This document shows positions 19,184-58,555 of a stretch of 64,000 bases of DNA, one piece after another. The stretch is from Primulina eburnea (lineage: Eukaryota; Streptophyta; Magnoliopsida; Lamiales; Gesneriaceae), in assembly GCF_022965805.1 (NCBI RefSeq), contig NC_133101.1, positions 50,796,342 through 50,860,341 of the forward strand, in the 5' to 3' direction. The notes beneath the pieces are model-generated. The model made no database searches and was not told where the DNA came from. It saw only the letters and a program-made list of their open reading frames with translations. The number at the start of each line of letters is the position of its first letter. The first letter of the stretch is position 1. A program made the translations under genes and the position numbers.

Positions 19184-22100
19184 CTTTTTGCACCATTTTT
19201 AAAATAAAACATTCAACTAGTACTTGATAAACCAAAGGGAATAGTCAAACATGAAATCGCAAGTCGTTTTACCAATCCTAAAAAGCAATAAATGTTGAAA
19301 AGTGTAGCCCATACTAAACCTCTCAAAATCTGGAAAAAAAAAACATAAATAAAATGTCGTAAATTTTTTTAACTTATAATCATAAACTTAAATGCGGAAA
19401 TAGCGCTGGTCCTCGGGTTATAAGCACCGACAGTCCAGCAAGTCACTCGTCAAGACCTCCAATATCATAGTTATTTATATCACCTGCATCATACAAATCT
19501 AGTGAGTCTAAAGACTCAACACGTCTTATCCTTGATAACAAGTAATACGTAATACAGTTAACATGTAACAGTGAAAAATACTTGTATTTAAAATATCATT
19601 TTCTTATTGATGCCTAAACTTTAAACTTAAACATTTTCAAAAAAACATAACCATATCCCATAAACATATTCATATTCATGTCCATATACGTATCCATATT
19701 CATATTCATATTCATGTTCATGTTCGTGTTTGTTGAATTCAGATTGTGATTGTGACTTGTATTCTTGATCGTATTGGGCGATGAATCCATCTAAAGAAAC
19801 CACAGTACTGGCGGCGAGGACACCAGCGACGTCTCACCGGTCAACTGGGCCTTGGCCAACGTATTAACATATTCGTATTCGTATCCAAGGAAACACGATC
19901 GTCGGGCTCCTACTGGGACCATAACCCTCACGATATTTCCAACATGTAGTAATCACAATCCCATCACGTCCTTCAACATGTTATCATCACTTAATAAAAA
20001 CATGCATATAATATCATTTTATTTTGAAACCAAGCATGCAACATATCTTTTAAATGTTCAATTTAATCCTTAATAATTCATGAACATTTTAAAATCATAT
20101 TTAAACATATAAAAATTCATAAACATATTACATCATATTAGCATATAAAACAGCAAATAGGACACTGCCATGACGTTTACTAATTTCTGGTGTAAAAAGA
20201 TCGTTTTACCCCTGGACGTGACATTTGACGTTTTTGACATTTTTTTTATTTTTTTGACTCTAACATGTCCCAAATAATTATTTAAGCCTAAATTAAAATT
20301 CCCATAATTTTATTTAGCTTAAAAACTAGGCTTTTTAATTAATTCGTAATTAGACGTTCTGAAGGCGTTTTAATTCTGAAAAATCCCAAACTTTAATATA
20401 AATTCCTAAATTCTAAATTTAGTCTTTTTATATTATTTTAGTCGCCATGGACCACGACTCGACCCTCTTGAGCCGTTTTTCAAGTTTTTAAGTTTAGCAA
20501 ACCTTAATATGACACAAAATCTTCGCCCCCGAGCCATGTTGATCCAAACTCTGACCAACACACTAGAGTACCCTAATGGACCCAAGGATCCCATGGAAAC
20601 CGCCCCAAACAGAAAAACGAAGCTCCAACATCAGCTATGTGTGTGTGGCCAAGAAGCCCTTTATGCACAGGACTCTTCATACCATCTTAGGACTGTGCCA
20701 CCCGACTTAGCCCCTGAACCGGCCCCTGGTGCACTTAACTATGACCCTAAGGACGCACCATGACCCAGCCCAGGCCCCCTGGACCAAGCCCACAAGTCTG
20801 CGAAATTCACAGAACCTGCGTGCCCCTCCTTAGCATCCCTCGGGTAGGAGTCCTTGCTGTCAAGGTCTCCTCCCAAGCCCCGAAGCTCGTGTCCTAGCAT
20901 GGCTAGGACTCTTCTCTTGACTCCCTTGTGACCTTGGCTAAGCCCTGACTCAAGCCAAGACCAAGCCCAGCCCTCCTACACAAAACCGAAGCCATGACCC
21001 TGTGACAGCAACTTACGTACCAACATGCATTCATGATCGCGGGTGGTGTTTAGGTGATGATCTAGGACTCTAATTACCATGTAAAACCATGACTAGACAT
21101 AACCAATATCATGGCAGACCTTAATCAATAAAAACACATGGGTTTTGAAGGAAAGTTCATGCAAAAAGTTGACATATGCCATCCATACGAAAATAATTCA
21201 AAGTTTTACATATTTTACAAACTTTTCATGCATAAAAATATAATATAGTGTGATGATGTTTTGAAGGAAAGAATAGGAGTGCTTTTGCATATTTAACGCG
21301 CGAAAACGTTGACGATATCGAAGAACGGAGAAAGATTTTGGCTTGAATTCTTCCTAGCCACCTCACGATTTTCTTCTTCAAATTGTGTTGTGTGTGCCGT
21401 GTTCTTGATGAGTGCTTTCGGTGTGTGCAGATTTCAGAAAAGCGGCGTGTACGTGTGATGGTGTTGGGAGGGCTACATATATTTATACATTAATTAACTC
21501 ACCAATTAAAGCTTAGGCCTAATAAGCAAGTTTTAGGCCCATCAGAGCTAGATTAGAGTTTAAGTATCATTTTAAAATAATTTTGGTAAAAATAAATTTG
21601 TGAATTTAATAGCCGGGTTGCCAAAAAGTTTATATTTTTTTCTGAAAAGCCAACGTCGATAAAGCTTACGTCCCGGCGTATAAAGTCACCTCAAAACCCC
21701 TTATTTTCAAAAATAAGAAAAACCATCAACCATATTTTAAATAATTAAAAATAATTATTTAATAAAAACATTTTACGTTTTTCAGCCCTCAGTCTCCATT
21801 CCTCGATCGCAACTTGAATATTCCTTAAAAATACAGTTTTATGAAAAATGACAATTAAATCATATTTAACATAAAATCATGCATGTCACACAAATAATTT
21901 AGAAATTAAATTAATCAATTACTCATTTTTTTTTTCCTAGATTTGCATGTAGTTGAATTACGTCGTCTTAATTTTGGACCATACAGATGCAGACTCATAT
22001 ATAATAATAAGATATACAACTCAAGAGAGAAAGAGAGAAGGGCACACTTCAAAGTCATATCAGCTTAAGAGAAGCATTCAGCCCAGTCGAGGGAACTCTT

Positions 22101-22763
22101 TACAGAAATATCAGCTTAGATTAGAAGCGCATTTCCTCACTGTGTAAGAACATCCTTGTTCAGTTCTCACACACACGGACACTCTCAAACACTCCAATAC
22201 AGTCTTGCACAAAGATGTTAAACTTGTGTATGTAGTCTTTGACACATAGACGTTAATGAAGTGTTGGCTGGAAGGTGCTGCCTTCAGTCGTAGCTAGGAG
22301 TTCAGTTTAGGCAGTAGTGTAAGTCCTAGCTGAGTGGGTTTGTACAAGTAGTTTTATAAATCAAAGTCTTCTAGTGGATCCTATCCGTGGAGATAGAAGG
22401 GGTGACGTAGGAGCAGTTGAAGTTTCCGAACATCCATAAACATATCTTGTGTATTTAACTGATTAACTATTGCTTTTAAACTGCTTTGATCAGTTGGAGT
22501 ATTCGTCAGTTCAGTTGACACCATAACTGAACTGAAGAATGCAAAAACTAATCCGTCTTCTTTCGGTTATTCAGTTTACATAAGATAAAATGTTTTCTAA
22601 GTTAACAGTCTTCTTCACGAAGGATTACTTCGAGTTTCTTCCGTTTGGTTTAAAACCAAACTCGATTTAATTCATCGGTGTTAATATTCTTAGAACACGA
22701 GCTATTGCAGCTTATTGGGAATATTTTTTTTGAAGCATCCCAAAGATACTGAGCGATCCTTCA
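18451..22763 (+). repeat. A2 5' LTR (contains a later solo LTR)
   Basis: Segments 18451-19087 and 21991-22763 match 23741-25122 almost base for base. The TATA-like CCTATATAAAG lies near 19063. The conserved TGACGTAG block is at 22403-22410. A 2.9-kb solo LTR entered just after the TATA region. Confidence 0.88.
19088..21985 (-). mobile_element. Large solo gypsy-type LTR nested in A2
   Basis: The 2,898-bp insert begins TGAAACG and ends CCATACA. It sits exactly where the A2 3' LTR is continuous and is flanked by GATGA (19083-19087) and GATGC (21986-21990). Its interior resembles 40850-42763, with words such as ACCTAGTGAGTCTAAAG-like text followed by CAACAC, and a shared GCCTTGGCC motif. That type of LTR I associate with Tekay/Del chromoviruses read on the minus strand. 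It has no internal coding region. The reading frame at 20509-20763 is incidental. Confidence 0.65.
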
Positions 22764-22765
22764 AT

Positions 22766-22777
22766 TGGTATCAGAGC
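22766..22777 (+). promoter_or_regulatory. A2 primer-binding site (tRNA-iMet)
   Basis: TGGTATCAGAGC lies two bases after the 5' LTR end, a perfect initiator-Met tRNA primer site. Confidence 0.92.
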
Positions 22778-23480
22778 AGGTTGTTCTAAGAAGAAATTAT
22801 TTGAAGAAAATTGTGTTTTATACAATTTTCGAAACTATTTGAAAATATTTATATGTCGCTCTTTGGTAAAGAGTTGTGAGGATTGGTCCTGCAATTTTCG
22901 TTATGGCCACTTCTCTAATTTCTTAACTTTGAGTTTTTAATTAGGCTGTAGGGGACTGAGGAACATATGCAAAGATACACAGCTAAATTGCTCACTGAAC
23001 AAGAAATCAGTTGCAAACCTACCAAGTCAGTTGTTCTTCAGACGAAATTCATCTCTGTTGGGATGTTGGTTGATTTAATCACCACTTGAACTCCACGTGA
23101 GCCTAGTCAGAGTCTGCTCGACCAGTTGGGTGAGCACAGAGGACAAGTCCAAAGTAGTTTAACTCATTTCTCTAGCAAATGGAACTCACAATTGATGCAG
23201 CAGTTCAAGCTATCAAGACAACTAGCTGATGGTATATCCAGTTCTGTCACAGAAACCGACCGATATCGATGCTGTTTAAAATATGCTATTGTTATAGAAA
23301 TTTTGCTTTTTCAACTGATGTATACACTCAGATGTAAATTCTTGAAAAAATTATTTAAGAAAACATCATGTTTATTCAGTTGTGTTCCGTTGGGATTGAA
23401 CATATATTCTCAGTTATATTGCTTAGGATGCTTGAATGATTAATTGACCAGTTTAAATATTTCTCAAATACGGGTTTTAT

Positions 23481-23740
23481 TCAGTTTCTGAGGGGGGAGC
23501 TTTCCTTTGTAACAAAATTTAGCTTAAAATCTAGTTACTCTCTCAGTCAACTGAAAAGTACTGTATTAAATCCTTTTTGACTACCAACTCAGTTTTAAAG
23601 GAGGAGTTTTTCTTTAGTCTTCAAAATTTCTTTAATTCAGTTTTTAAGGGGGAGATTTCGACAGTTTGAATGTACTAACTCTTAAACTGAATATATTGTG
23701 CTTAATTGTTCAAGTTTTGTATTCATCAAAAAGAGGAGAT
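23481..23740 (+). repeat. Repeated polypurine tracts before the A2 3' LTR
   Basis: Purine tracts AGGGGGGAG (23491), AAAGGAGGAG (about 23597), AAGGGGGAGA (23646) and AAGAGGAGA (23731) recur, the first three each after a TCAGTTTY word. Only the last abuts the LTR. Multiple polypurine tracts upstream of the 3' LTR are a recorded feature of plant sireviruses. Confidence 0.8.
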
Positions 23741-25122
23741 TGTTGGAACTTTTCAAGTTCGCAATCTTGATTTTGATGATAACAAAATTTGTTAATTGTG
23801 TTACTAATGATCTACCTTAGTGTGCAGCATCTAGGATCACTCACAAGATGTTTACATCGCAAAACTGAAGACCCAACTATCGAACAAAATGAATCAGTCT
23901 AACTAGTTACGTCAATTAAGAAGTCCAGCTGATTGTCCAATTGATAGGTGATTCAGCAGGAAAACCTCAGAAGCCCAGCCAGCCGAAGTCAACTGATGAA
24001 AAAACCCAGCTGATCAGTCCAACTGACAAGTCAACTGATTTCACCAGCCTAACTGAAAGATCAGTTCAACTGACCAGTTCGAAGCATCAGTTAGAATCCT
24101 TTATTTATGGATGAAGACAAACTATTTCAAGTGGATTTCAGCTGTATGTGAAGGTATAAAGACATTATACAGTCAAAGGACAATAATGGACGTTGCATCA
24201 GAGCATTAAAATAAAACGCTTCAGAAGGGCAGTCAAAAAGACGAGACACAAAGTCCAAGAAACCGAATCAAAAGAAACGGATACAATAAATGAATCTCAC
24301 TGTACGATCAGTTTTCCCGCCTATATAAAGAGAAGATCGGTGAAGACTCATATATAATAATAAGATATACAACTCAAGAGAGAAAGAGAGAAGGGCACAC
24401 TTCAAAGTCATATCAGCTTAAGAGAAGCATTCAGCCCAGTCGAGGGAACTCTTTACAGAAATATCAGCTTAGATTAGAAGCGCATTTCCTTCGGTGTGTG
24501 AGAACATCCTTGTTCAGTTCTCACACACACAGACACTCTCAAACACTCCAATACAGTCTTGCACAAAGATGTTAAACTTGTGTATGTAGTCTTTGACACA
24601 TAGACGTTAAAGAAGTGTTGGCTGGAAGGTGCTGCCTTCAGTCATAGCTAGGAGTTCAGTTTAGGCAGTAGTGTAAGTCCTAGCTGAGTGGGTTTGTACA
24701 AGTTGTTGCATAAATCAAAGTCTTCTAGTGGATCCTATCTGTGGAGATAGAAGGGGTGACGTAGGAGCAGTTGAAGTTTCCGAACATCCATAAACATATC
24801 TTGTGTATTTAACTGATTAACTATTGCTTTTAAACTGCTTTGATCAGTTGGAGTATTCGTCAGTTCAGTTGACACCATAACTGAACTGAAGAATGCAAAA
24901 ACTAATCTGTCTTCTTTCGGTTATTCAGTTTACATAAAATAAAATGCTTTCTAAGTTAACAGTCTTCTTTACGAAGGATAACTTCGAGTTTCTTCCGCTT
25001 GGTTTAAAACTAAACTCGATTTAACTCATCGGTGTTAATATTCTTAGAATACGAGCTATTGCAACTCATTGGAGAATATTTTGTTTGAAGCATCCCAAAG
25101 ATGCTGAGCAAACGATCCTTCA
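23741..25122 (+). repeat. A2 3' LTR
   Basis: A 1,382-bp LTR, TGTTGGAACTT to GATCCTTCA, is uninterrupted here. A TATA-like CTATATAAAGAG lies near 24321 and the TGACGTAG block at 24757-24764. Confidence 0.92.
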
Positions 25123-25127
25123 AAGTG

Positions 25128-33639: not shown

Positions 33640-35123
33640 ATTGGATAGAGGCTATGCAGGAGGAACTTAATAAATTTGAAAGAAGCAAAGTTTGGCATCT
33701 AGTTCCTCGTCCTGATAATATGCACGTTATTGGTACTAGATGGGTGTTTAGAAACAAAATGGATAAAAATGGTTCAATAATCAGAAATAAGGCCGGACTA
33801 GTAGCTCAAGGCTATAGGCAGAAGGAAGGAAGAAAACTTTGATGAATCTTTTGTCTCTGTAGCTAGGCTAGAAGCAAAGATTCTTTCTGGCCTTTGCACC
33901 ATTTAAGGATTTTAAGGTATATCAGATTATGTTAAATCTACATTTCTAAATTTTTGTTAAATGAAGAAGTTTATGTAGAGTAACCACATGGCTTTATTAA
34001 TCACGTTCATCCTGATTATGTTTACAAACTAGATAAATCTCTGTATGGACTAAAACAAGCCCCTAGAACCTGGTATGACACGTTAACTAAATTCTTGCTT
34101 GAACGTGGCTTCTCAATTGAAACAGTTGACAAAACTTTAGTTAAATTTTCAAAAGATGGTAACTCATTATTTGTGCAAATATACATGGACGATATTATAT
34201 TCGGATCAACTAATCCTAAATTATGCGAGAGATTCTCTAAGATAATGCATGAGCAGTTTGAAATGAGCATGATGGGAGAAATGAACTTCTTTCTAGGCCT
34301 GCAAGTCAAGAAGTCAAAGGATGACATCTTCATTAACCAAGATAAATACACGACAGATATGCTGAAAAAGTTTGAAATGGAGAATTGATCCCTAGCCACT
34401 ACCTCAATGAGCTCATCAATCAAACTGGACAAAGATGAAGGGGGAATCTCTTTGGACACAAAAATGTACAAAGGATTAATTGGTTCACTATTGTATCTAA
34501 CCGCCACTCGTCCAGATATAATGTTTGTTGCTTGTCTATGCTCTTGATTTCAATCTAATCCAATGCAATTTCATTTTACTGTCGTTAAAAGAATCGTTAA
34601 ATATCTTAAGGGTACTATTAGGGCAGGTCATTGGTACACCAAATACACAAGTATTCATCTTGTAGGATATTCAGACGCAGACTATGCCGTTTGCAAAATT
34701 GACAGGAAAAGTACTAGTGGTTCATGTAAGTTTTTGTGTGATAGAATAATATCGTGGTTTAGCAAGAAACAAATGTCTATTTCCATATCAACCGCTGAAG
34801 CAGAGTACCTTGCGGCTGGAAGCTGTTGCGCACAAATACTGTGGATACAACAACAGCTCAAGGATTATGGAATTCAATCCACTGAGTCTCCTATCTTCTG
34901 TGACAACACAAGTGCAATCACAATCACATAAAATCCGGTTATGCACTCTCAGACAAAGCATATTGACATCAGACACGATTTTATCCGAGAACATCATGAA
35001 GAAAGAGATTCTGCTTGAATATGTGCATACTGATCAATAAGCGGTTGATATTTTCACAAAACCGTTACCAGAGGCTAAGTTTTCTTATTCCGAAATACGC
35101 TTGGTTTAATCGATTTATCTTAG
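33640..35123 (+). pseudogene. Element B reverse transcriptase and RNase H remnant
   Basis: RT begins with MQEELNKFERSKVWHLVPRP and shows GTRWVFRNK. The catalytic motif YMDDIIFGS lies near 34183. RNase H includes YSDADYAVCK, DRKSTSG and STAEAEYLAAG, with the terminal FTKPLP segment near 35055 and a stop at 35121-35123. In an active element this makes the cDNA. Frame changes near 33840, 34390 and 34545 break it. Its 3' end is 101 bp from the end of the convergent antisense ORF. Confidence 0.85.
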
Positions 35124-35224
35124 TCATTTGTTTAACATTCTTAGTTGATTGAATTATTACTAAGTTTGTTATGCAGGAAATAAAGAAATAGATAGACGAG
35201 GACTGGTAAAAACACAATAAAATT

Positions 35225-35641
35225 TCATAAATTAAGGCGGGCCCTTACAGCAGCAATTTCGTTTTTCACTGCACCCCTCCAGAAGGCCGACCAAATGGTC
35301 AGCCCTCCGACAGAGGTGCACATAAAGTTCTCTGAGAAGTAAATCCTTCTCAGGGCCCTCTGCTCCTTCAGAAGCATGAGGAGGTAGACACCTTCATCAG
35401 AGAAGATTTCTTTGGTATCAGCGACGCGGATGCGCCGCTGATACTTCTTCAGTGTTGCCACCCATTTGGGAGTAGCAACAAGCCCTCCCCCGAGGAAGGA
35501 CTGAAGTTCTCGGACTTTCATCCAAGATGACAACGTCTTCTTCAAGATGATGTCCTCCAGCACAGCCTTCCGTGCCATGATTATCTCTTGCATGAACTCT
35601 TCAGCGAGATCCGGCTCACTTGAACTACTTCCAGTATTCAT
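35225..35641 (-). CDS. Antisense ORF of sirevirus element B (138 aa), unknown function
   Basis: An intact 138-codon frame runs opposite to gag-pol between the pol stop and the third sense ORF. Its product is clearly related to the 139-aa product at 46783-47202 in element C: LAEEFM/MAEDFM near the start, RELQSFL/QELQFLW, LKKYQRRIRVA/LEKYRERLHVA and YLLMLLKEQRAL/YELMLYKERRIL come in the same order. It is charged, probably helical, and has no signal peptide, membrane segment or domain I know. A TATA box (TATAAATA, 35698-35705 on the minus strand) lies 56 bp upstream of the ATG. It stays open although gag, pol and ORF3 of the same copy are broken. Function is unknown; expression is inferred only from the promoter layout. 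Confidence 0.72.
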   Translation of the reverse strand: MNTGSSSSEPDLAEEFMQEIIMARKAVLEDIILKKTLSSWMKVRELQSFLGGGLVATPKWVATLKKYQRRIRVADTKEIFSDEGVYLLMLLKEQRALRRIYFSENFMCTSVGGLTIWSAFWRGAVKNEIAAVRARLNL

Positions 35642-35697
35642 TTTCTCTTATCTTGCTCTGCACCTTAAAATGATTTTGTGACTAAACCCTCTGGTTG

Positions 35698-35705
35698 TAT
35701 TTATA
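35698..35705 (-). promoter_or_regulatory. TATA box of the antisense ORF in element B
   Basis: TATAAATA on the minus strand, 56 bp upstream of the ATG at 35641. The element C counterpart has the same octamer 53 bp upstream of its ATG. Confidence 0.65.
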
Positions 35706-36027
35706 GATAAGAACCATACAAAAAGTCACCATCATAATTACTGTCAGGAGGATATAACGAGTTCTCTGCAAATCGACCGCCGTTTCATTACCTGAGGATA
35801 AGTTTACTTAATGCATTTGATTAGGGGAATACTGCTTTAGTCAATAAATTAATATGACTCAACCGCCTCCTCTCTAATCATCTTAAACAGATCATTTCTT
35901 CATTTTGGGCTCGTTTTGTTTTCCACGTCATTTCGAAAAAATTACGCGACTTTGCGTCTGCCCTATTTTGATGTGACAGCTACTTTCTCAAAATTCGAAA
36001 TTCATCATTTTATCGCCATCTAGTTTT

Positions 36028-36028
<1 letters not shown>

Positions 36029-36072
<44 letters not shown>
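36029..36072. repeat. (TAA)n microsatellite
   Basis: About 14 TAA/ATA repeats without interruption, within the divergent intergenic region of element B. Confidence 0.93.
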
Positions 36073-36090
36073 CACTCCACTAACAGTCCT

Positions 36091-36098
36091 CCACGTGG
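36091..36098. promoter_or_regulatory. G-box palindrome in element B
   Basis: CCACGTGG is a perfect G-box-type palindrome about 145 bp before the ORF3 ATG. Element C has GACACGTGTC at a similar distance (about 120 bp). G-boxes bind plant bZIP and bHLH factors; use here is inferred. Confidence 0.5.
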
Positions 36099-36242
36099 AC
36101 TGACTTGTGATTCTTTGAACCGGACATTCATACACAAATTCAGTATCATTCTGATCTTTGTTTTGCTGCAATCATACACAATTCCTCTTAAATATTTTCT
36201 GAGATTATCTTCTAGGTGTGTATTTCGATCTTTCCACATCAA

Positions 36243-39100
36243 ATGGCTGCATCAATTGTTCAAAATACAATTGCCATCAACGTTGCATCAGTATTTGCCA
36301 TGACCAACAAGCCAATGAAAGCCATGTTTCGTCTCCTTGAATCTTCTCGGCTTCGTTTATTTCTGGGAAGCAGTGAGAAGTATTCTGAGAATCTAGTGAA
36401 GCAATTCTTTGATTCAGCATACATGGAAAATGGATAAATTATTTGTGTTGTTCAAGGAAAAATCTTCATTTCATCCAGAAGATGTTTGCTGATTTGTTTA
36501 AACTACCAGTAGCTGGAATCACCGACTTCACTACACTTCCAGACGGCAATATTGAGCTTTTGAGAAGCAACTTCTCCATCACCGAATCTCCAATTTCTTC
36601 TCCAACTTGTCAAAAATGCGATCTGAAGATCGAATTCAGATTGCTGGCCGATATCGTGGAGAAAGTAGTCCTTGCCAAGGCTGGTGCATATGACAAGATA
36701 AATTTTGAAAAATTTCTTGTCATGGCCACCATCTCATCAAATCTGAAGGTCAACTGGTCCGAATTCTGTTCAAAACATTGGTGGCGATGATAAAGAAGGA
36801 AAATAAGTTCTCAAGGATTTGAGGCTCAAATATGTTATCTGCTAATTGACGCTGGAGTTCAACCGGTGGAAATGAATGAAGTTGAAAGACCAAGCTGTTC
36901 AACTAGATAACAGTTGAAAAGTTTATCAGAAAAATCGACCAACCGATGAGGAAATAGTCTCTATCAAAACAGAGACTGTGGTTGAATTTGTAAAACAAAA
37001 TAAGACTGAATCAACTCCCAATGGAACAGAGAGAAAGATGATCCTAAAATCTAGCTCTGATGATGAATCTAGGGAAGATGTCCCTGTCTCTCAAGTTTAC
37101 AAGATGAAACGGTACGAAAAGACCAAAAAACAAAGATCAAGTTGATTAAGCATCTTTCGGTGCCACATGTCCCTCCCCCAATCCTGCACTCCCTGCACAA
37201 AGCTCAAAGTATACAAATTACTGAACCAAAACTGAATCTTATTACTCAGAAGTACCTATCATTCTTTCAATAGACAAGGGAAAACAAGTCATGATCGAAG
37301 AACCACAAAAAACCAACTCAGTCCATACCGCCATAGCTCTTATCAGTGAACGAGTAAATGAGACCATTCAGAAGAAGATGGAGATGTTTGATCAATGGGT
37401 TCAATTTCGAACCGTCACAACCTTTTTGACTCATTGATTCAAATCGGTAAGATCAAAGCTGCTGCGAAGCTTGAACGGTCGATCTTAAAATGGACAGAAA
37501 CATCGGATATTCCAACCGCTCTGCATCAACAAGATTTCTTGGAAATTCAGATGAAAGAGAGTTCTCTCCGAGCACTTATGTTGGAACATTTCATGTTCGC
37601 AATCTTGATTTTGATGTTAACAAAACTTCTTTATTTGTTTCTAATGAGTTTACCTAAGTGCGCATAAACTGAAACTGATCAAGCTTCCAACTGATCAGTT
37701 GGCAAGTTTAAACTGAAGCTATCGAGACGAAAACTAAAAGTGCCAACTGATTGATCGAACTGAACAAGTACAACTGAAGCATCAAGAGTAGTTGAATTGA
37801 TTGTACAATTGATAGGTAGTTCAGCAGAAGACTTTCAGAATCCCGGCCAGCTGATGAAGTGTTCAACTGATTAAGAGCCAAAGTGATCAGTTCAGCTGAC
37901 GAGTCAACTGATTTCACATCACAAGATCAAGACTAGTTCAACTGACCAGTTCAAAACATCAGTTAGGAGCGAACCAGTTTGCAGATACGACAAGTTTAAT
38001 CCAGTTGTGCACAAAGGTACAAAAGCTATTGTACGATCAAGGTACAATAAGAGAAATTGCAGCAGTGCATAAAGCCAATTGTTCCAGATATCTATTTGGG
38101 GGAACAAATTCAAATTGCAACGGATTATTTCACTGAATCTCACTGTACATTCATTCAAACGCCTATAAATAGAAGCCAAAGCTTAGTGAAGACGATGACG
38201 AGAACTGACAAGTGAAAATAAGAAGGGCATGCATATTGCATATCAGCTTACAAGAGAGAAGCAATCAGCCTAGAGGGAACACTTCAATGTGTTATCAACT
38301 TAGTTTAGAAGCATATTTCCCTCAGTGTGTCAGAACACCTTCTTGGTGCTTTCAGATATCAGTTCTCACACACACACACACCCCACCACTCAATACAGTC
38401 TTGCACAAAGACAATAAAGTTGTGTATATAGTCTTTCTCACATAGAAATTAAAGAAGTATTTGCTGGAAGGTGTTGCCTTTAGTCTAGACTATGAGTTCA
38501 GTTAGGCAGTGGGTAAGTCCTAAGCTGAGAGGATTATTACACTTGTTGTAGTTAATCAAAGTCTTCTTGTATATTCTACCCGAGGAGGTAGAAAGGGTGA
38601 CGTAGGAGCAGTTGAAGTCTCCGAATATCCATAAAAATATCTTGTGTACTCTAACTGTTAACCCCTAGTTTTAAACTAAATTGATCAGTTCGAGTATCTA
38701 TCAGTTCAATTCTCACCATAACTGAACTGATACATGCGAGAACTGATCCCCCTTATCTTCAGTTAATCAGTTACACAAGATTAAAAGCTTTAACCGATTA
38801 GTTTTCTTAACGAAGGATTATTCGAGTATTTTCCGCTATATTTAATTTCAAACTCGATCTAATTCATCGGTGTAAACATTCTTAGAACACGAGCTATTGC
38901 AGCTCATCTTGTTTTTTGAGGATTTTCCCGATCCAAAAACTTATACAATTGAGACGGAACAATTTCGTTCCCACTTGCCTTGCTTCAAAGGATGACTCAA
39001 CTGTTATCTCCTAGCTTGAAATAGATGCTCTCTCGCTTTCTATGATCGTTGCTCAGATGAGGCATGACCTTCATCTTCTAGCGGTTGAAGAACAATGTTC
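36243..39100 (+). pseudogene. Third sense ORF (ORF3, env-like position) of element B
   Basis: From ATG at 36243 the text (MAASIVQNTIAIN, LRLFLGS) resembles the N-terminus of the element C ORF3. It continues through frame-shifted pieces at 36443-36790 (FRLLADIVEKVVLAKAGAYD, like C's VQLLADIIVKGILAKAGSFA) and basic, Ser-rich text to 37573. After removal of the solo LTR at 37579-38938 it resumes at 38944 and runs to about 39100. Proteins of this type follow pol in sirevirus-like elements. Their function is unknown, and the label 'env-like' describes position only. Several stops and frame changes inactivate it. Confidence 0.75.
37579..38938 (+). mobile_element. Solo sirevirus-like LTR inside ORF3 of element B
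   Basis: The 1,360-bp insert begins TGTTGGAACATTTCATG and ends GATCCAAAA (the expected final CA is AA). It is flanked by an exact ACTTA duplication (37574-37578 and 38939-38943). Removing it and one ACTTA rejoins ORF3 in the same frame. A TATA-like CCTATAAATAG lies near 38162 and TGACGTAG at 38598-38605. There is no internal region, so it is a recombination product. Confidence 0.88.
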
Positions 39101-42763: not shown

Positions 42764-43723
42764 TGAAAGGATCAGTTAAACGAATAAAGAGTGTTTAGAA
42801 GGGGGGGTTTGAATAAACACTCCTCAAAATTTAAAAATACTTCGACAATTTGAGTTCAGTTTTGTTACAAACTGATACTAGGTATCACGTCGGTCAATGA
42901 CAATAAGTTAAACTGAATGAAACAGTTGCGGAAAATAAATTGACTGAAAGATAGAGTATCTAACTGAAAAGTAACGACTGAAGTAAAGATAACACAATTT
43001 GTTTCTGGATGTTCGGAGACTTGAATAACTCCTACGTCACCCCTTCTATCACGAAGATATGATATCCACTAAAAGACTTTGATCAAATACAAGATACTGC
43101 ACTGACCCACTTCAGTTTGGACTTATCACTTTGCACAACTGAAACTCTTAGTATATAACACTTTTACAGATGATAACTGATCTTAGCACAACTTAGAAAA
43201 ACTTTATGAAAGATTACACAGTGCTATTTAATCTCGAAAATGTAGCCTTGAATGCTACTGATATAACCAGTAAACGTGAGCTTTTAACTTCTGAATGTGA
43301 GTAGATACTTTTGCAGCGTAACAACAAGTAGAATGTAATAGCTGAAATCAGTCTTTGTTTCTTCGGCTGCTATCTTCGATTATTTATAGGCTTCTCTCTC
43401 AACGGTAACATTAAAGGATATTTGAATATTCTAACCGTTGATTGTCACGTCGATATACTCTGACAGTCGTACACTGCTTATTCTGAAATGCGACGTTCCA
43501 CTACCAGTTGCAGGTAGCTGCACTATTTGTCGGTTGTCGCTTTCAACTGATGACGTGTACAGCTGAGAGATCAGCTGGTAAAGAGTCAGTTGACGAGAAT
43601 GACTGAAGAGATGTTTAGCTGAAAGAGCAGCTAGCTGTTCAGTTATAATTTAGTTGCGTCGATCAGTTAGCTGAATTCAGTTGGTTTATCTTTTTGTCAA
43701 ACACCGGAATTCAGTTTCCAACA
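42764..43723 (-). repeat. Element C 3' LTR (complete)
   Basis: 960 bp. On the coding strand it runs from TGTTGGAAACTG to CCTTTCA. It contains a TATA-like CCTATAAATAA at about 43381-43391 (minus strand) and the TGACGTAG block at 43032-43039 (as CTACGTCA). Confidence 0.9.
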
Positions 43724-43740
43724 ATTTCCCCCTTTATGGT
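43724..43740 (-). promoter_or_regulatory. Element C polypurine tract
   Basis: On the minus strand ATAAAGGGGGAAAT directly precedes the 3' LTR start TGTTGGAAACTG. Confidence 0.85.
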
Positions 43741-43852: not shown

Positions 43853-46179
43853 TTATTGAGATTTCTTCTGCTGATCTAAAATCTCTTTGAGCTCTTCCCC
43901 TTTTTTGTCAAACAGCTCCATCTTGACAGATAATTTCCGAACGTCAGTAGATAGAAGCCGGACAGAGGTGGAAATGTTTTCAATAGCAGAGGTCATTGTG
44001 ACTTGAAGCAAATCTATCTTTATGGAGACGAGTGTCTCGACACTGTCAACTCGTTTGTTAATAGAATTTTGAGTTGCAGTGAGACTCAAAGCTATCCCCT
44101 TGTTCTTTTGGATTTCTTCAACTGCAAATGAGAGAGAGGTAACAGCAGTTTGGATAGCCTTCAGCTTCTCGGAGTTGAACTGTTGAGAGTCTTCCAATTT
44201 TAAGGTGTGAGATAGTTGTGTATTCTGAATCTTTGAGATGGCTGAGAGCATCTGATTCATACTATCCTGCATATTCTGAATTTCTTCGAGAACAAGATCA
44301 AAATCTGATGAGAATGGAGGAGGAGACTGATGAGAGGTTTCCGGTCCTCTTGTAGTTTGATCAAATATAATCAACTCTTGATCAGTTGATACTGTTTCAG
44401 CAACATTCTGAACTGAAGTGATTGCAGCAACTTCTTCTGGAACTGGAGGTGGAGAAGGTGGATTCTGATCAACAGATGAGCTGCCTAGAAATAATAGAAT
44501 CTGATGAAGCCAAAACTGGTGCTTCTAGAGGGTGATCTTGGGGATCAGTTGGCATCTGGATCTCCTTGATGAAGGACTAACTCTTGATCCATTTCCCAAA
44601 ACTTTATCTGAGATAGCAATCCAATCAGATCGGTGTCTAGCTGAGTAATCACCGCATGATCAGCATAGGCAGTAGGATTTGTTGGAACGTAGTTATCCTT
44701 CAGTTTGTCAAGAATTTGTGCTAACTTCTTTGCTCTCATCTGATCAAACAAATAAGTTTTTCTCTCCAGAACTTGAACAATTGTTGCCGCTTTGACCATC
44801 TTGAGGACAAAGGCTTCCAGTTTGATGAACTTGTTCAGCTGGGATTTCTTTCTTAGTTGCTTGGCAAAAATATGAGTACGATAAGCTGTCCAAGCATCAT
44901 AGAGTTGAAGTTTTGATGCTGCAAAATTGTTAACCCTATCCCAAACAAGGTCAATGTGGGTCTGAATGGCATTGGAAGGCCTAGGCTCTTCAATCAATTT
45001 GCCCTTGCCTTTATCAGAACTGAGGATGTGTGGAATTTCCAGACCAGTTCGAGTAGCATCCACCCGTTCTATAATAGTGATGCCTTTGGGTCGGGCAGGT
45101 GCCAGAACAGTAGGATGAGCAATATTAATCAGAGGAGCTTTGATCCTAACTGTTTCTTTCTTTGCACCAGCTGCTTTTTCTGGTGGGATGATCTTCAAAG
45201 GAACTGCTTCAATTGGTTGCTGAGCATCTGAAGAGATTGGCTTGTCAGTAGGAATAGATTTCTCTGTAGTTGTTGGCTTAATCCTCTGGGTTCTCGGTTT
45301 CTTGGCTATCTTTGGGGAAGGAGTTTTCTCTGAATCTGATTCACCCACAACTAATTTCCTTTTTGCTGACTTCAGTTGAGCCAATGTCTTGGCCTTTTTC
45401 ACTGATTTAGGGGCCGCCTGTTGAGTCCCAATCTCCTGCTTTATCTTTACAAACTGAGCAGGAGAAATGTCTAATTTGGTCTTGAGCGGCATAGTACTCT
45501 TCGCATTGAAGAATTTGAATTTGGATGATTTTTCTGAATCATCTGCCACTAACCCCTTCACTTTCAGCAAATAGCTCAGTTGCACGGCAAAGCCTTTGGA
45601 TTGTTTGGATGATAGAAACATATTCTTTAAAATATTGAATATAAGATGCTTCCAGTTGAGTTTACGTTCAGCCATAATGATAGAAATGGCCTGAAATTTT
45701 TCTAACGTAAGTTCAGCAAAAGATCCAGCTTTCGCCAAAATCCCTTTGACGATGATATCAGCAAGTAACTGAACCTCGTGCTTCAGCTTCTTCTTTGGAT
45801 CGGAAACTTTGATTTTCCGTTCATCAAAAGAAAGTGAGATTTGCATTTCTTCAACATCAGATGCTTTTACATCAGATAGGTGTGCCAGTCCTTCAGATGG
45901 TAAAGAAAAGATTTCTCCAAAGGAATCTTCAGAGATGGTCAGCAACTGACCATTGATAGTAGAGGTGATGTTTCCATCATTAATTGATCATACTGGTAGA
46001 GTAGAATTTCTTAAGTTCTTTGGGGTAGATCTCTTGTGATGATTGTCCCAAGAATGTCCTTAACCCAGAAATACGTTCTTGACATCAGCATCGCCGAAGG
46101 ATAGAATCGATCCGAAGTTGATAGCCATTGCATTCAGCATATAAGCGGGAGTTTGATTCGTCATTTGGAACTGAATCAT
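43853..46179 (-). pseudogene. Third sense ORF (ORF3) of element C, nearly intact
   Basis: From ATG at 46179 a short conserved N-terminal piece is broken by stops and frame changes near 46060 and 45990. A 466-codon open stretch (45945-44545) then continues through VQLLADIIVKGILAKAGSF to a Lys/Pro-rich middle and a basic C-terminal part. A further frame change near 44400-44545 leads to a 173-codon segment (44374-43853) that is Leu/Ile/Ser-rich with heptad spacing, probably a coiled coil. It ends about 115 bp before the polypurine tract. Homologous to ORF3 of element B. Function unknown; position is that of the env-like ORF of sireviruses. Confidence 0.78.
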
Positions 46180-46307: not shown

Positions 46308-46721
46308 AGTCCATAGAAATTCTGAATTACAACGTGTGTACGTGTGCTGTAAGCGTGTGTAATTTAAACGGTTCAAAAGGTGTCCACGTTTCCACCAATC
46401 ATTTGCTGAAGGATAGCATTTAATGCTTGAAGAACAGTCACGTCACTTGATTTGGAATATAATATGGTTAATTAGTTAACTTATATGAGAAGATTAGTGA
46501 AAAACTCAACTGAATGATCAGTTGTGAGACTGTGTCCTCAGTTGAGAGTTGACTAACAATTGTCTTCTCAGTTAACCTTTTAAAACCAATATTCCCCCTT
46601 AATAGATGCATAAAAGAGAATTTCGAGAAAATAAACAAGATTAATTAAAAGAAATCCTGATACTTAGTAGTGTAAACGCCTGTCATAATGAAATAGTCCT
46701 TTCATCTTCTTTGTCTTGTTC

Positions 46722-46729
46722 TATAAATA
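46722..46729 (+). promoter_or_regulatory. TATA box of the antisense ORF in element C
   Basis: TATAAATA, 53 bp before the ATG at 46783. The upstream in-frame ATG at 46711 lies before the TATA box, so it is unlikely to be in the transcript. Confidence 0.68.
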
Positions 46730-46782: not shown

Positions 46783-47202
46783 ATGGCATGTGCAAGCAGT
46801 TCAAAATCTCCGGACATGGCTGAAGATTTTATGAAAGCAGCTCTGGAGAAGAGAAAGGTTGAGATGGAAGATGATGTTTTCCATCAAATGCTACGCTACT
46901 GGGAGAATCTCCAAGAACTTCAGTTTCTTTGGGAGAATGAGATGGCAAACACTCCCATTTTGCTGGAAAAACTGGAGAAATATCGGGAACGCTTGCACGT
47001 TGCCCATGCTGTGAATATTTTCGAACCAAACAATATTTACGAGCTGATGCTCTACAAGGAGAGGAGGATCCTAGAGCTCATATCTCAGTCTGACAGCTTT
47101 CATAAGACTTGCACTGGAGATTTAAATCAATGGATGGCCAAGTGGAGGGCTTTTGTTCAGGACGAATTGTATAATGTAATTCGCAACAATTTCTTCAAAT
47201 GA
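46783..47202 (+). CDS. Antisense ORF of sirevirus element C (139 aa), unknown function
   Basis: An intact 139-codon frame runs opposite to the element's own genes, between RNase H and ORF3. I chose the ATG at 46783 because the alignment to the element B antisense product begins there (ASSSKSPDMAEDFM versus SSSSEPDLAEEFM) and because the earlier ATG precedes the TATA box. The product is highly charged, rich in Glu, Lys and Leu, likely helical, and has no recognised domain, signal or membrane segment. Its stop is 224 bp from the convergent pol stop. Its start is 603 bp from the divergent ORF3 start, matching 601 bp in element B. Function unknown. Confidence 0.75.
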   Translation: MACASSSKSPDMAEDFMKAALEKRKVEMEDDVFHQMLRYWENLQELQFLWENEMANTPILLEKLEKYRERLHVAHAVNIFEPNNIYELMLYKERRILELISQSDSFHKTCTGDLNQWMAKWRAFVQDELYNVIRNNFFK

Positions 47203-52654: not shown

Positions 52655-52666
52655 GCTCTGATACCA
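52655..52666 (-). promoter_or_regulatory. Element C primer-binding site
   Basis: On the minus strand TGGTATCAGAGC lies two bases after the 5' LTR end, a perfect tRNA-iMet primer site. Confidence 0.92.
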
Positions 52667-52668
52667 CT

Positions 52669-53362
52669 TGAAAGGATCGGTTAAACGAATAAAGAGTGTT
52701 TAGAAGGGGGCGTTGAATAAACACTCCTCAAAATTTAAAAATACTTCGACAATTTGAGTTCAGTTTTGTTACAAACTGATACTAGGTATCACGTCGGTCA
52801 ATGACAATCAGTTAAACTGAATGAAACAGTTGCGGAAAATAAATTGACTGAAAGATAGAGTATCTAACTGAAAAGTAACGACTGAAGTAAAGATAACACA
52901 ATTTGTTTCTGGATGTTCGGAGACTTGAATAACTCCTACGTCACCCCTTCTATCACGAAGATATGATATCCACTAAAAGACTTTGATCAAATACAAGATA
53001 CTGCACTGACCCACTTCAGTTTGGACTTATCACTTTGCACAACTGAAACTCTTAGTATATAACACTTTTACAGATGATAACTGATCTTAGCACAACTTAG
53101 AAAAACTTTATGAAAGATTACACAGTGCTATTTAAGCTCGAGAATGTAGCCTTGAATGCTACTGATATAACCAGTAAACGTGAGCTTTTAACTTCTGAAT
53201 GTGAGTAGATATTTTTGCAGCGTAACAAGTAGAATGTAATAGCTGAAATCAGTCTTTGTTTCTTCGGCTGCTATCTTCGATTATTTATAGGCTTCTCTCT
53301 CAACGGTAACATTAAAGGATATTTGAATATTCTAACAGTTGATTGTCACGTCGATATACTCT
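52669..53362 (-). repeat. Element C 5' LTR, truncated
   Basis: Nearly identical to 42764-43461 but stops abruptly after CGATATACTCT at 53362. The first 262 bp on the coding strand (most of U3) are gone, while the TATA-like site near 53280 remains. The following base belongs to the DnaJ 3' flank. Confidence 0.9.
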
Positions 53363-57199: not shown

Positions 57200-58150
57200 G
57201 TTGATAAAGTTATCCGGAAGAAATCGAGAAAAGCTTCTGTATATATATTGAAAATCCTTACGCCTTTTGCGAGAAATCCGTCCTTCTGATTTTGAATCTG
57301 AGTACAGTACCGAGTTCCTATCAACGTAGGCTACAACTGGACGTAAGTTTTGCTACGTTTTGATATGCTTTGAAATTATGATATTGTCAGAATTGAATAG
57401 GATTCATATATGATGTTCTTGACATAGTAGACATCGTATAAGTGAAGTCAGATTGAGAAACGGACCGTTTATGTAATTGTTATGATTTTCGGAGTCGATG
57501 TGACTGAGAATTCATATCAGATATGTATTGTTATTGAGATTATGACTAGTATCGATATTGATAATGAGCTCTGGTATTATATCTGTGATGTTGGGATTGA
57601 CGGGGTTACTGAAATTGTATTGTCATACCGTCGAAACATCAATGAATTGATGTTGATCAGACTCAGTATTGATTGTGATTATATCGGGATATTGTCGATA
57701 TGGATTAGATTGTGTCTTGACTTGACATTGATCAGATTATGTGTTGAATTGAGTATTGATCAGAACAGGTATTGAATTGAGTTGTTTATTGATATTATAT
57801 CTGTTCGGTATTGTGATTACCAGATTGGGAATGGACCGAGATAGAGTCGGGACTTCTTCTTCTTCTTCTGAGCGAGAAGATAAAGGTATAAGTCAATGTG
57901 GTATTGGGAGATGGACTTGAGTCGGTTTAGACTTGGGTTTCCCTAAATCACATACTTTACTTTATTGCATTAATATTTGCATTGATTGATTGATATACTT
58001 GTTTTCTTGAGTTATATATTACAGGTATTAGAAGAGTAATCTTATGACAGAAGTGCCGTTAGTGGTGGGATCACCACGGGCACATTGCACGATGTCATAA
58101 GATGGTGTATTGGCGGATGTGCCAAAGACGGTCACTGGATGTTGGTTATC

Positions 58151-58555
58151 GATGTGGATAGATTGATAGCTTCTTCTATTACTGTTAGTTGATATTATAT
58201 CGATGTGGATAGATGTATAGCTTATTCTATTACTGTTGATTGATATTATATCGATGTGGATAGATTCATCGTTCCTTCTATTACTGTTAATCGATGTTAT
58301 ATCGATGTGAATAGAATCAGACTTTGTTCTATTACTGGTAATCGATATCCTATCAATGTGGATAGAATCAAGGCTTGCTCTATTACTGTTAATCGATAAT
58401 ATATCAATGTAGATAGAATCAGGGCTTCGTCTATTACTGTTAATCGATACTGTATCGGTGTGGATAGAACTGGAGTCTTTTCTATTACTGTTAATCGATA
58501 CTATATCGGCGTGGATAGAACTGGAGTCTTTTCTATTACTGTTAGTCGATATATG
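58151..58555. repeat. 51-bp minisatellite (eight units) in the solo LTR
   Basis: Eight units start exactly 51 bp apart at 58151, 58202, 58253, 58304, 58355, 58406, 58457 and 58508. Each contains GTGGATAG, CTATTACTG and TCGATA words. Because 51 is a multiple of three, the minus strand stays open for 176 codons with 17-residue repeats such as SINSNRKDSSSIHTDTV. Confidence 0.93.

Follow-up and report, generated by a model that had tools for sequence, protein, structure and literature searches.

Antisense accessory genes of plant long terminal repeat (LTR) retrotransposons have until now been a puzzle of the Ty3/gypsy side, with no assigned function. Antisense open reading frames (ORFs) of the class aORF-3R are described in Grande of maize (gene23), RIRE2 of rice, and Retand of Silene (PMC7264820), and an antisense ORF2 is reported for 15 Ty3/gypsy families of common bean, in contrast to two Ty1/copia families of that species, in which the extra ORF is envelope-like (PMC4093653). 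A promoter has been reported in the upstream region of Grande gene23 (PMC7264820; PMC4093653), and TRP28 (PF04195) of Retand has been found in antisense between pol and the 3′ LTR in 97 % of the examined clusters (PMC11963269). In the present study, an antisense gene was analysed in two Ty1/copia elements assigned to the Sireviruses, B and C, which lie within 64,000 nucleotides of Primulina eburnea (contig NC_133101.1, positions 50,796,342 to 50,860,341). This whole stretch is referred to as the window and all coordinates are given within it.

Based on the comparisons presented here, it is very probable that many Sireviruses of this genome carry, in antisense, a functional protein-coding gene that has a promoter of its own. 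In a plant-wide survey, extra ORFs were counted only at 250 codons or more, and a forward ORF at the 3′ side was reported as a feature of SIRE (PMC6317226). An antisense ORF of 138 codons would escape this survey because of its threshold.

The antisense gene and its family in the genome

The antisense accessory ORF of element B (35225..35641, minus strand) begins with an ATG, is intact, and encodes 138 amino acids. That of element C (46783..47202, plus strand) is likewise intact, with 139 amino acids counted from the ATG at 46783. The two proteins are homologous, with 38 % identity over 132 gap-free codons (E 3e-26, tblastn within the window). Each ORF is preceded by a TATAAATA box, at 35698..35705 (minus) in B and at 46722..46729 (plus) in C, with the first T at -64 and -61 from the ATG and spacers of 56 bp and 53 bp, respectively. 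The distance from the antisense ATG to the ATG of ORF3, the sense ORF between pol and the 3′ LTR, is 601 bp in B and 603 bp in C. The original prediction had given these ORF lengths, spacers, and distances, which were reproduced exactly to the base for both elements. In dinucleotide-shuffled gaps, TATAAATA occurs 30–130 bp 5′ of the ATG at a frequency of 0.0085 (B) or 0.0065 (C).

When B and C are compared from pol to the LTR, blastn similarity stops where pol ends, and protein-level alignment in tblastx is limited to the antisense ORF and two segments of ORF3. Each element has a broken pol and a broken ORF3 together with an open antisense ORF. Alone, this is weak evidence, because 0.4 kb may stay intact by luck, and therefore tests across the whole family are decisive.

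Searches of the 812-Mb genome of the species with the B and C proteins gave at least 150 matches for each query, from 4,837 and 4,936 first-look candidates, respectively; among the 150 listed matches of the B query, approximately 89 are without an internal stop, as counted by hand. Ninety loci were compared, comprising B, C, and 88 fetched loci: 60 B-like loci, about 3.6 kb long except for one of 6.5 kb, 20 C-like loci of 2.4 kb, and eight short loci. The choice was not random, since the 60 were taken from the 150 B-query matches and are mostly stop-free (11 of the 60 have a stop), with the others being rows 2–21 of the C-query list and eight mid-range matches; intactness was therefore not used as a statistic. 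One locus, L067 (G000:C8:36743446 and 36745300), contains two equally matching open copies 1.85 kb apart, of 229 and 215 amino acids, a pair that resembles a local duplication.

The layout recurs across the family. In 59 of the 60 B-like loci pol is antisense to the gene and downstream of it, in none is it on the same strand, and the remaining locus (L010) has no pol match; among the 20 C-like loci, the flanks of which are long enough, 19 also have pol in antisense. These loci, as well as B and C, thus have an antisense ORF between pol and the 3′ LTR, the position that defines aORF-3R. A search of the genome with pol gave at least 150 matches, from 16,183 candidates. Divergence among copies of the antisense gene is correlated with that among the corresponding pol sequences (Mantel r 0.78, n=52, with none of 2000 permutations as high), and the antisense gene therefore descends with the element. 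A fragment of a host gene, recently captured by one element and carried unused, would fit an origin from outside, which is possible given that no homologue was found among known families. Such a capture is already contradicted and very improbable, since the gene occupies the same site in families whose antisense proteins are up to 70 % different (lowest pairwise identity 0.30), follows pol in its divergence, and is under selection.

Codon models were fitted to 73 of the 90 loci over 135 codons, with a frame of 118–180 codons from the ATG being required. Of the 17 loci left out, 16 are closed early by a stop and L067 is longer; L078 (128 codons) was retained. The model was self-written, with separate internal and terminal branches and with relative branch lengths fixed from the nucleotide tree. 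Across the 73 open copies, the ratio of non-synonymous to synonymous substitution rates (omega) is 0.346 on internal and 0.592 on terminal branches, with a doubled log-likelihood difference (2dlnL) of 180.6 against an internal omega of 1; a higher terminal value is expected if copies decay once they have inserted. When each 90 % cluster is represented by a single copy and B and C are excluded (31 copies), omega is 0.323 (2dlnL 133.0), and the B-like (49 copies) and C-like (24 copies) subsets give 0.352 and 0.291. Omega below 1 is also seen for the pair of B and C alone (0.48, likelihood ratio 6.3), where 1 of 150 neutral simulations was as extreme.

Purifying selection is specific to the frame of the protein. 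Of the six frames compared between B and C, only that of the antisense gene has an omega significantly below 1, and in the 73 copies the internal omega is 1.4–2.1 in four of the five other frames. On this evidence the antisense gene is under real, moderate purifying selection, and the proposal that a real antisense protein gene exists in a sirevirus-like element is supported by homologues in many diverged copies and by an omega below 1 over the whole family. A chance ORF combined with a chance TATA box in two decayed elements would agree with the broken pol and ORF3 of B and C. It is already refuted, with next to no probability left to it, by the homology between B and C, the number of matches to each query, selection across the family, and the conserved TATA box described below.

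Core promoter and the start of ORF3

The TATA box and the start codon of the antisense gene are conserved. Of 90 copies, 80 have TATAAA(T/A) 30–125 bp 5′ of the start, compared to 0–4 of 82 in six upstream control windows, so that the TATA box originally proposed for the gene in B and C proves to be a feature of the family. The longer CTATAAATA is found 5′ of the start in 68 of 90 copies (control windows 0–1 of 82). When the open copies are clustered at 90 % identity, TATAAA(T/A) is present in most copies of 25 of the 30 clusters.

A second conserved core block follows the box. In B this is TTTAGTCAC (35678..35686, minus), 19–27 nt downstream of the first base of the TATA box and just 5′ of the expected transcription start. 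In a TATA-anchored, ungapped profile of the 64 open copies with a box, in which large subfamilies weigh more, pairs whose genes are 50–75 % identical agree upstream at a nearly random level (mean 0.27) and reach 0.67–0.87 in the block 19–23 nt downstream. TAG(T/C)CA occupies the position of this block in 32 of 80 copies and was found in 0 of 80 in each of two control windows. The median distance from the TATA box to the ATG is 61 nt. In the start context of the same 64 copies, position -3 is a purine (A or G) in 61 and position +4 is G in 53, and three copies contain an upstream ATG. The sequence anatomy is that of a putative TATA-driven mRNA with a short leader.

The original prediction had also placed the antisense gene and ORF3 under one internal divergent promoter, on the strength of the matched geometry of B and C. 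Starts of ORF3 could be placed in 62 of the 90 loci; ORF3 was matched in 67, of which four have no usable ATG and one, L067, was excluded, and the eight short loci end before reaching ORF3. A single bidirectional promoter serving both genes would explain why the two starts point outward from a common intergenic stretch, with a gap of 500–700 bp in 44 of 62 loci. However, TATAAA(T/A) at the matching place of ORF3 is present in only 1 of 62 loci, in contrast to the frequency seen for the antisense gene, a test that covers TATA-containing promoters. The gap also varies, being 900–1,000 bp in two loci and 1,300–1,600 bp in 16, and therefore exceeds 900 bp in 18 of 62. The geometry is matched between B and C and is not fixed across the family, and the divergent promoter is not supported.

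Sequence resembling a splice acceptor is present instead before ORF3. In B it is TTCTAG, then G (36210..36215, plus), and a pyrimidine tract followed by AG is often seen 5′ of the ORF3 ATG, for example CTTGCAG/GTG or TTTTCTAG/GAA. The best acceptor score 5′ of the ORF3 start has a median value of 3.98, compared to no more than 0.79 in five control windows, and a cut-off of 4 is passed in 17 of 62 loci against 0–1 of 62 in the controls, using a self-made weight matrix with assumed base frequencies. A simpler acceptor rule discriminates poorly (52 of 62, against 7–42 of 62 in upstream controls and 19 of 62 inside ORF3). The recurrence of acceptor-like sequence across families hints at a spliced gene in the env position, and is suggestive only. 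Because TATA boxes are rare at ORF3, the gap is variable, and acceptor-like sequence is present, it is more likely that ORF3 is read from a spliced LTR transcript and the antisense gene from an independent promoter, and a true divergent pair is improbable. Derivation of the antisense gene from ORF3 was also considered and rejected, there being no significant BLAST or profile match between them.

The predicted protein and its possible role

The antisense protein has a median length of 137 amino acids and a median isoelectric point of 6.6. Its highest hydropathy over 19 residues has a median of 0.73, with one copy at 2.11. The strongly conserved positions include three tryptophans and several charged residues. 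Searches of a protein database gave no match for B alone or for an alignment of B and C, with a word filter that may miss relatives of about 40 % identity; the same database gave three matches for ORF3 of C, all from Dorcoceras hygrometricum (Gesneriaceae, Lamiales), so plant proteins are represented in it. There was no match in viral_contigs or genome_contigs, and no RNA family was found within 34800–36800.

In the proposed mechanism, the accessory gene of many Sireviruses (Ty1/copia, SIRE lineage) lies in reverse orientation in the stretch bounded by pol and the env-position ORF3. RNA polymerase II would initiate on the strand opposite to gag-pol, approximately 30 bp past the conserved TATA box, giving a short mRNA with a leader of about 30 nt that encodes the protein of about 137 amino acids. 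This protein would most likely act as a regulator in trans, produced also under conditions in which the LTR is silenced or only weakly transcribed. Since the gene descends with the element and is under purifying selection, its protein would be expected to aid the spread of the element. Transcription, translation, and a regulatory role are what we infer for the gene. The regulatory role is suggested because the protein is conserved, has a promoter separate from the LTR, and evolves faster than pol, as would suit a regulator in contact with host factors; from this context, a trans-acting accessory regulator made independently of the LTR is a tentative proposal, with a probability somewhat short of even. 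A narrower version, in which the protein is a counter-silencing or activation factor of a Ty1/copia clan, waking or protecting sibling copies, is unlikely. If true, the LTR-independent promoter would allow expression of such a factor before silencing of the LTR is lifted.

A number of observations weigh against a functional protein gene with its own promoter. In 16 of the 88 fetched loci a stop closes the frame before 118 codons, and L078 is additionally cut to 128; one C-like locus, L074, has only same-strand pol matches; and 10 of 90 copies are without a TATAAA(T/A) box. In the close C group (16 copies), the internal omega of 0.608 is indistinguishable from 1 (2dlnL 1.0), which is attributed to little time for divergence. 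Opposite frame 1 has an omega of 0.459 (2dlnL 99.8), and is read as a shadow of the gene, because the two frames have their third positions in common and about 5 % of the codons in opposite frame 1 are stops or missing. Constraint is also roughly tenfold stronger in the RNase H tail of pol from the same loci (internal omega 0.033, 52 of 65 rows used), and the two ORF3 segments give values of 0.03 and 0.06 between B and C, at saturated synonymous divergence. Motifs like a classical nuclear localization signal are present in only 7 of 73 copies. In Pfam, there was no match for B or C and only sub-threshold matches for 10 further members, and among solved structures (PDB) nothing was convincing (best E 0.079). 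Finally, a poly(A) signal is not enriched after the stop, AATAAA being present in 29 of 66 copies, compared to 38 of 66 for the opposite strand.

The last of these points, the lack of poly(A) signal enrichment between the ORF and pol, would also fit an antisense RNA that is itself the product, pairing with the genomic RNA of the element and limiting copy number through small RNAs or interference, with the ORF incidental. A function of this kind was suggested earlier for antisense RNAs transcribed from plant LTR elements (PMC7264820). An incidental ORF would not account for purifying selection specific to the protein frame, nor for the good start context and few upstream ATGs, and as the sole product the RNA is a shade less probable even than the divergent pair. 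An RNA role in addition to that of the protein may exist. The protein-coding gene with its own promoter is therefore retained as the preferred explanation.

Host elements and comparison with known systems

Sireviruses are marked by a primer-binding site (PBS) of the tRNA-Met type and by a terminal polypurine tract (PPT) with the octamer AGGGGGAG, then AT/TG; the final base of the octamer is A in ToRTL1 and Tnd-1 (PMC2829016). In element C, the 5′ LTR (52669..53362, minus) is approximately 260 bp shorter than the 3′ LTR (42764..43723, minus), the start of which is placed from the terminal PPT, and the two are 98.4 % identical over 698 aligned columns. A tRNA-Met-type PBS, TGGTATCAGAGC, is present at 52666 (minus), at the end of the 5′ LTR, and the terminal PPT is AGGGGGAA, then AT/TG, at 43733 (minus), as in Sireviruses. 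The exact PBS pattern was searched for in B and not found, and a search for its LTR pair gave only weak partial matches downstream, leaving the 3′ end of B unsettled. The gag-pol DNA of B and C is 66–72 % similar, which is the basis for grouping them. Judged from these marks, B and C are Sireviruses (SIRE lineage, Ty1/copia), C by PBS and PPT and B by gag-pol similarity. The pol of C contains frame changes despite the high identity of its LTRs, and here real decay and assembly errors are indistinguishable.

The 3′ end of pol in B (34563..35123, plus) runs from the RNase H region to the stop at 35121–35123, as read from the sequence, and the antisense gene is tail-to-tail with it, with about 100 bp between. 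ORF3 of B (36243..37413, plus) is broken by stops and frameshifts, its ATG at 36243 corresponding to residue 1 of a Dorcoceras protein. ORF3 of C (44545..46179, minus) has its ATG at 46179 and is broken near the start, with an open part of 466 codons (44545–45945). The sense ORF between pol and the 3′ LTR that is typical of Sireviruses is therefore present as remnants in both elements.

Internal PPT-like sites were also found upstream of the antisense gene, a variant of the Sirevirus octamer, TAGGGGAA, in B (35822..35829, plus) and the octamer AGGGGGAA in C (46592..46599, minus), about 184 bp from the antisense ATG. The linker of C contains two PPT octamers (46599 and 43733), one of them 5′ of ORF3. 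On the element-sense strand, 42 of 82 loci have the octamer 100–300 bp 5′ of the antisense ATG, compared to 0 of 82 in a control window. In loci with at least 500 bp upstream, its usual place is 150–240 bp 5′ of the start of the antisense gene, and before ORF3. In earlier work, Sirevirus linkers were described with several identical PPTs, the extra ones lying mostly after the env-like gene, near the 3′ LTR (PMC2829016).

Elsewhere in the window, a short LTR element (22001–25123) has LTRs that are 96 % identical, a PBS at 22766, and an internal part of approximately 1.6 kb. Its LTRs resemble other sirevirus-like LTRs of the window, and it is probably non-autonomous. A tandem array with a period of 51 bp is present at 58096–58554.

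The word 'antisense' does not occur in the main texts, as far as these were available, of three Sirevirus papers (PMC2829016, PMC3599292, PMC3414828), and a paper on AtCOPIA4 (PMC3036077) concerns antisense knock-down and no antisense ORF. No recognisable report of such an antisense gene in Ty1/copia was found in a search that did not extend to most subscription papers, so that its absence from the literature is unproven. The antisense gene in Ty1/copia is real and small and has apparently been overlooked, in an arrangement already known from Ty3/gypsy. That an antisense gene under selection, with a core promoter of its own, exists in a copia lineage suggests that this arrangement arose more than once, and a length cut-off of 250 codons can evidently conceal a conserved transposon gene. 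With many open copies, this genome is a compact test case, in which LTR-independent expression of a transposon regulator becomes testable by ordinary RNA mapping.

Compared to known systems, the env-like ORF of Sireviruses, or SIRE eORF-3′F, has the same place and sense orientation as ORF3 in these elements, and therefore corresponds to the neighbour of the antisense gene. TRP28 of Retand, as reported, is like the antisense gene in being antisense between pol and the 3′ LTR; it is unlike it in that PF04195 is unmatched by B, C, and 10 further members at E values up to 1. Likewise, the reported aORF-3R of Ty3/gypsy elements is an extra ORF on the opposite strand between pol and the 3′ LTR and is found across families, as is the gene described here, whereas the host element of the latter is a Ty1/copia Sirevirus and its protein has no Pfam match above the cut-off.

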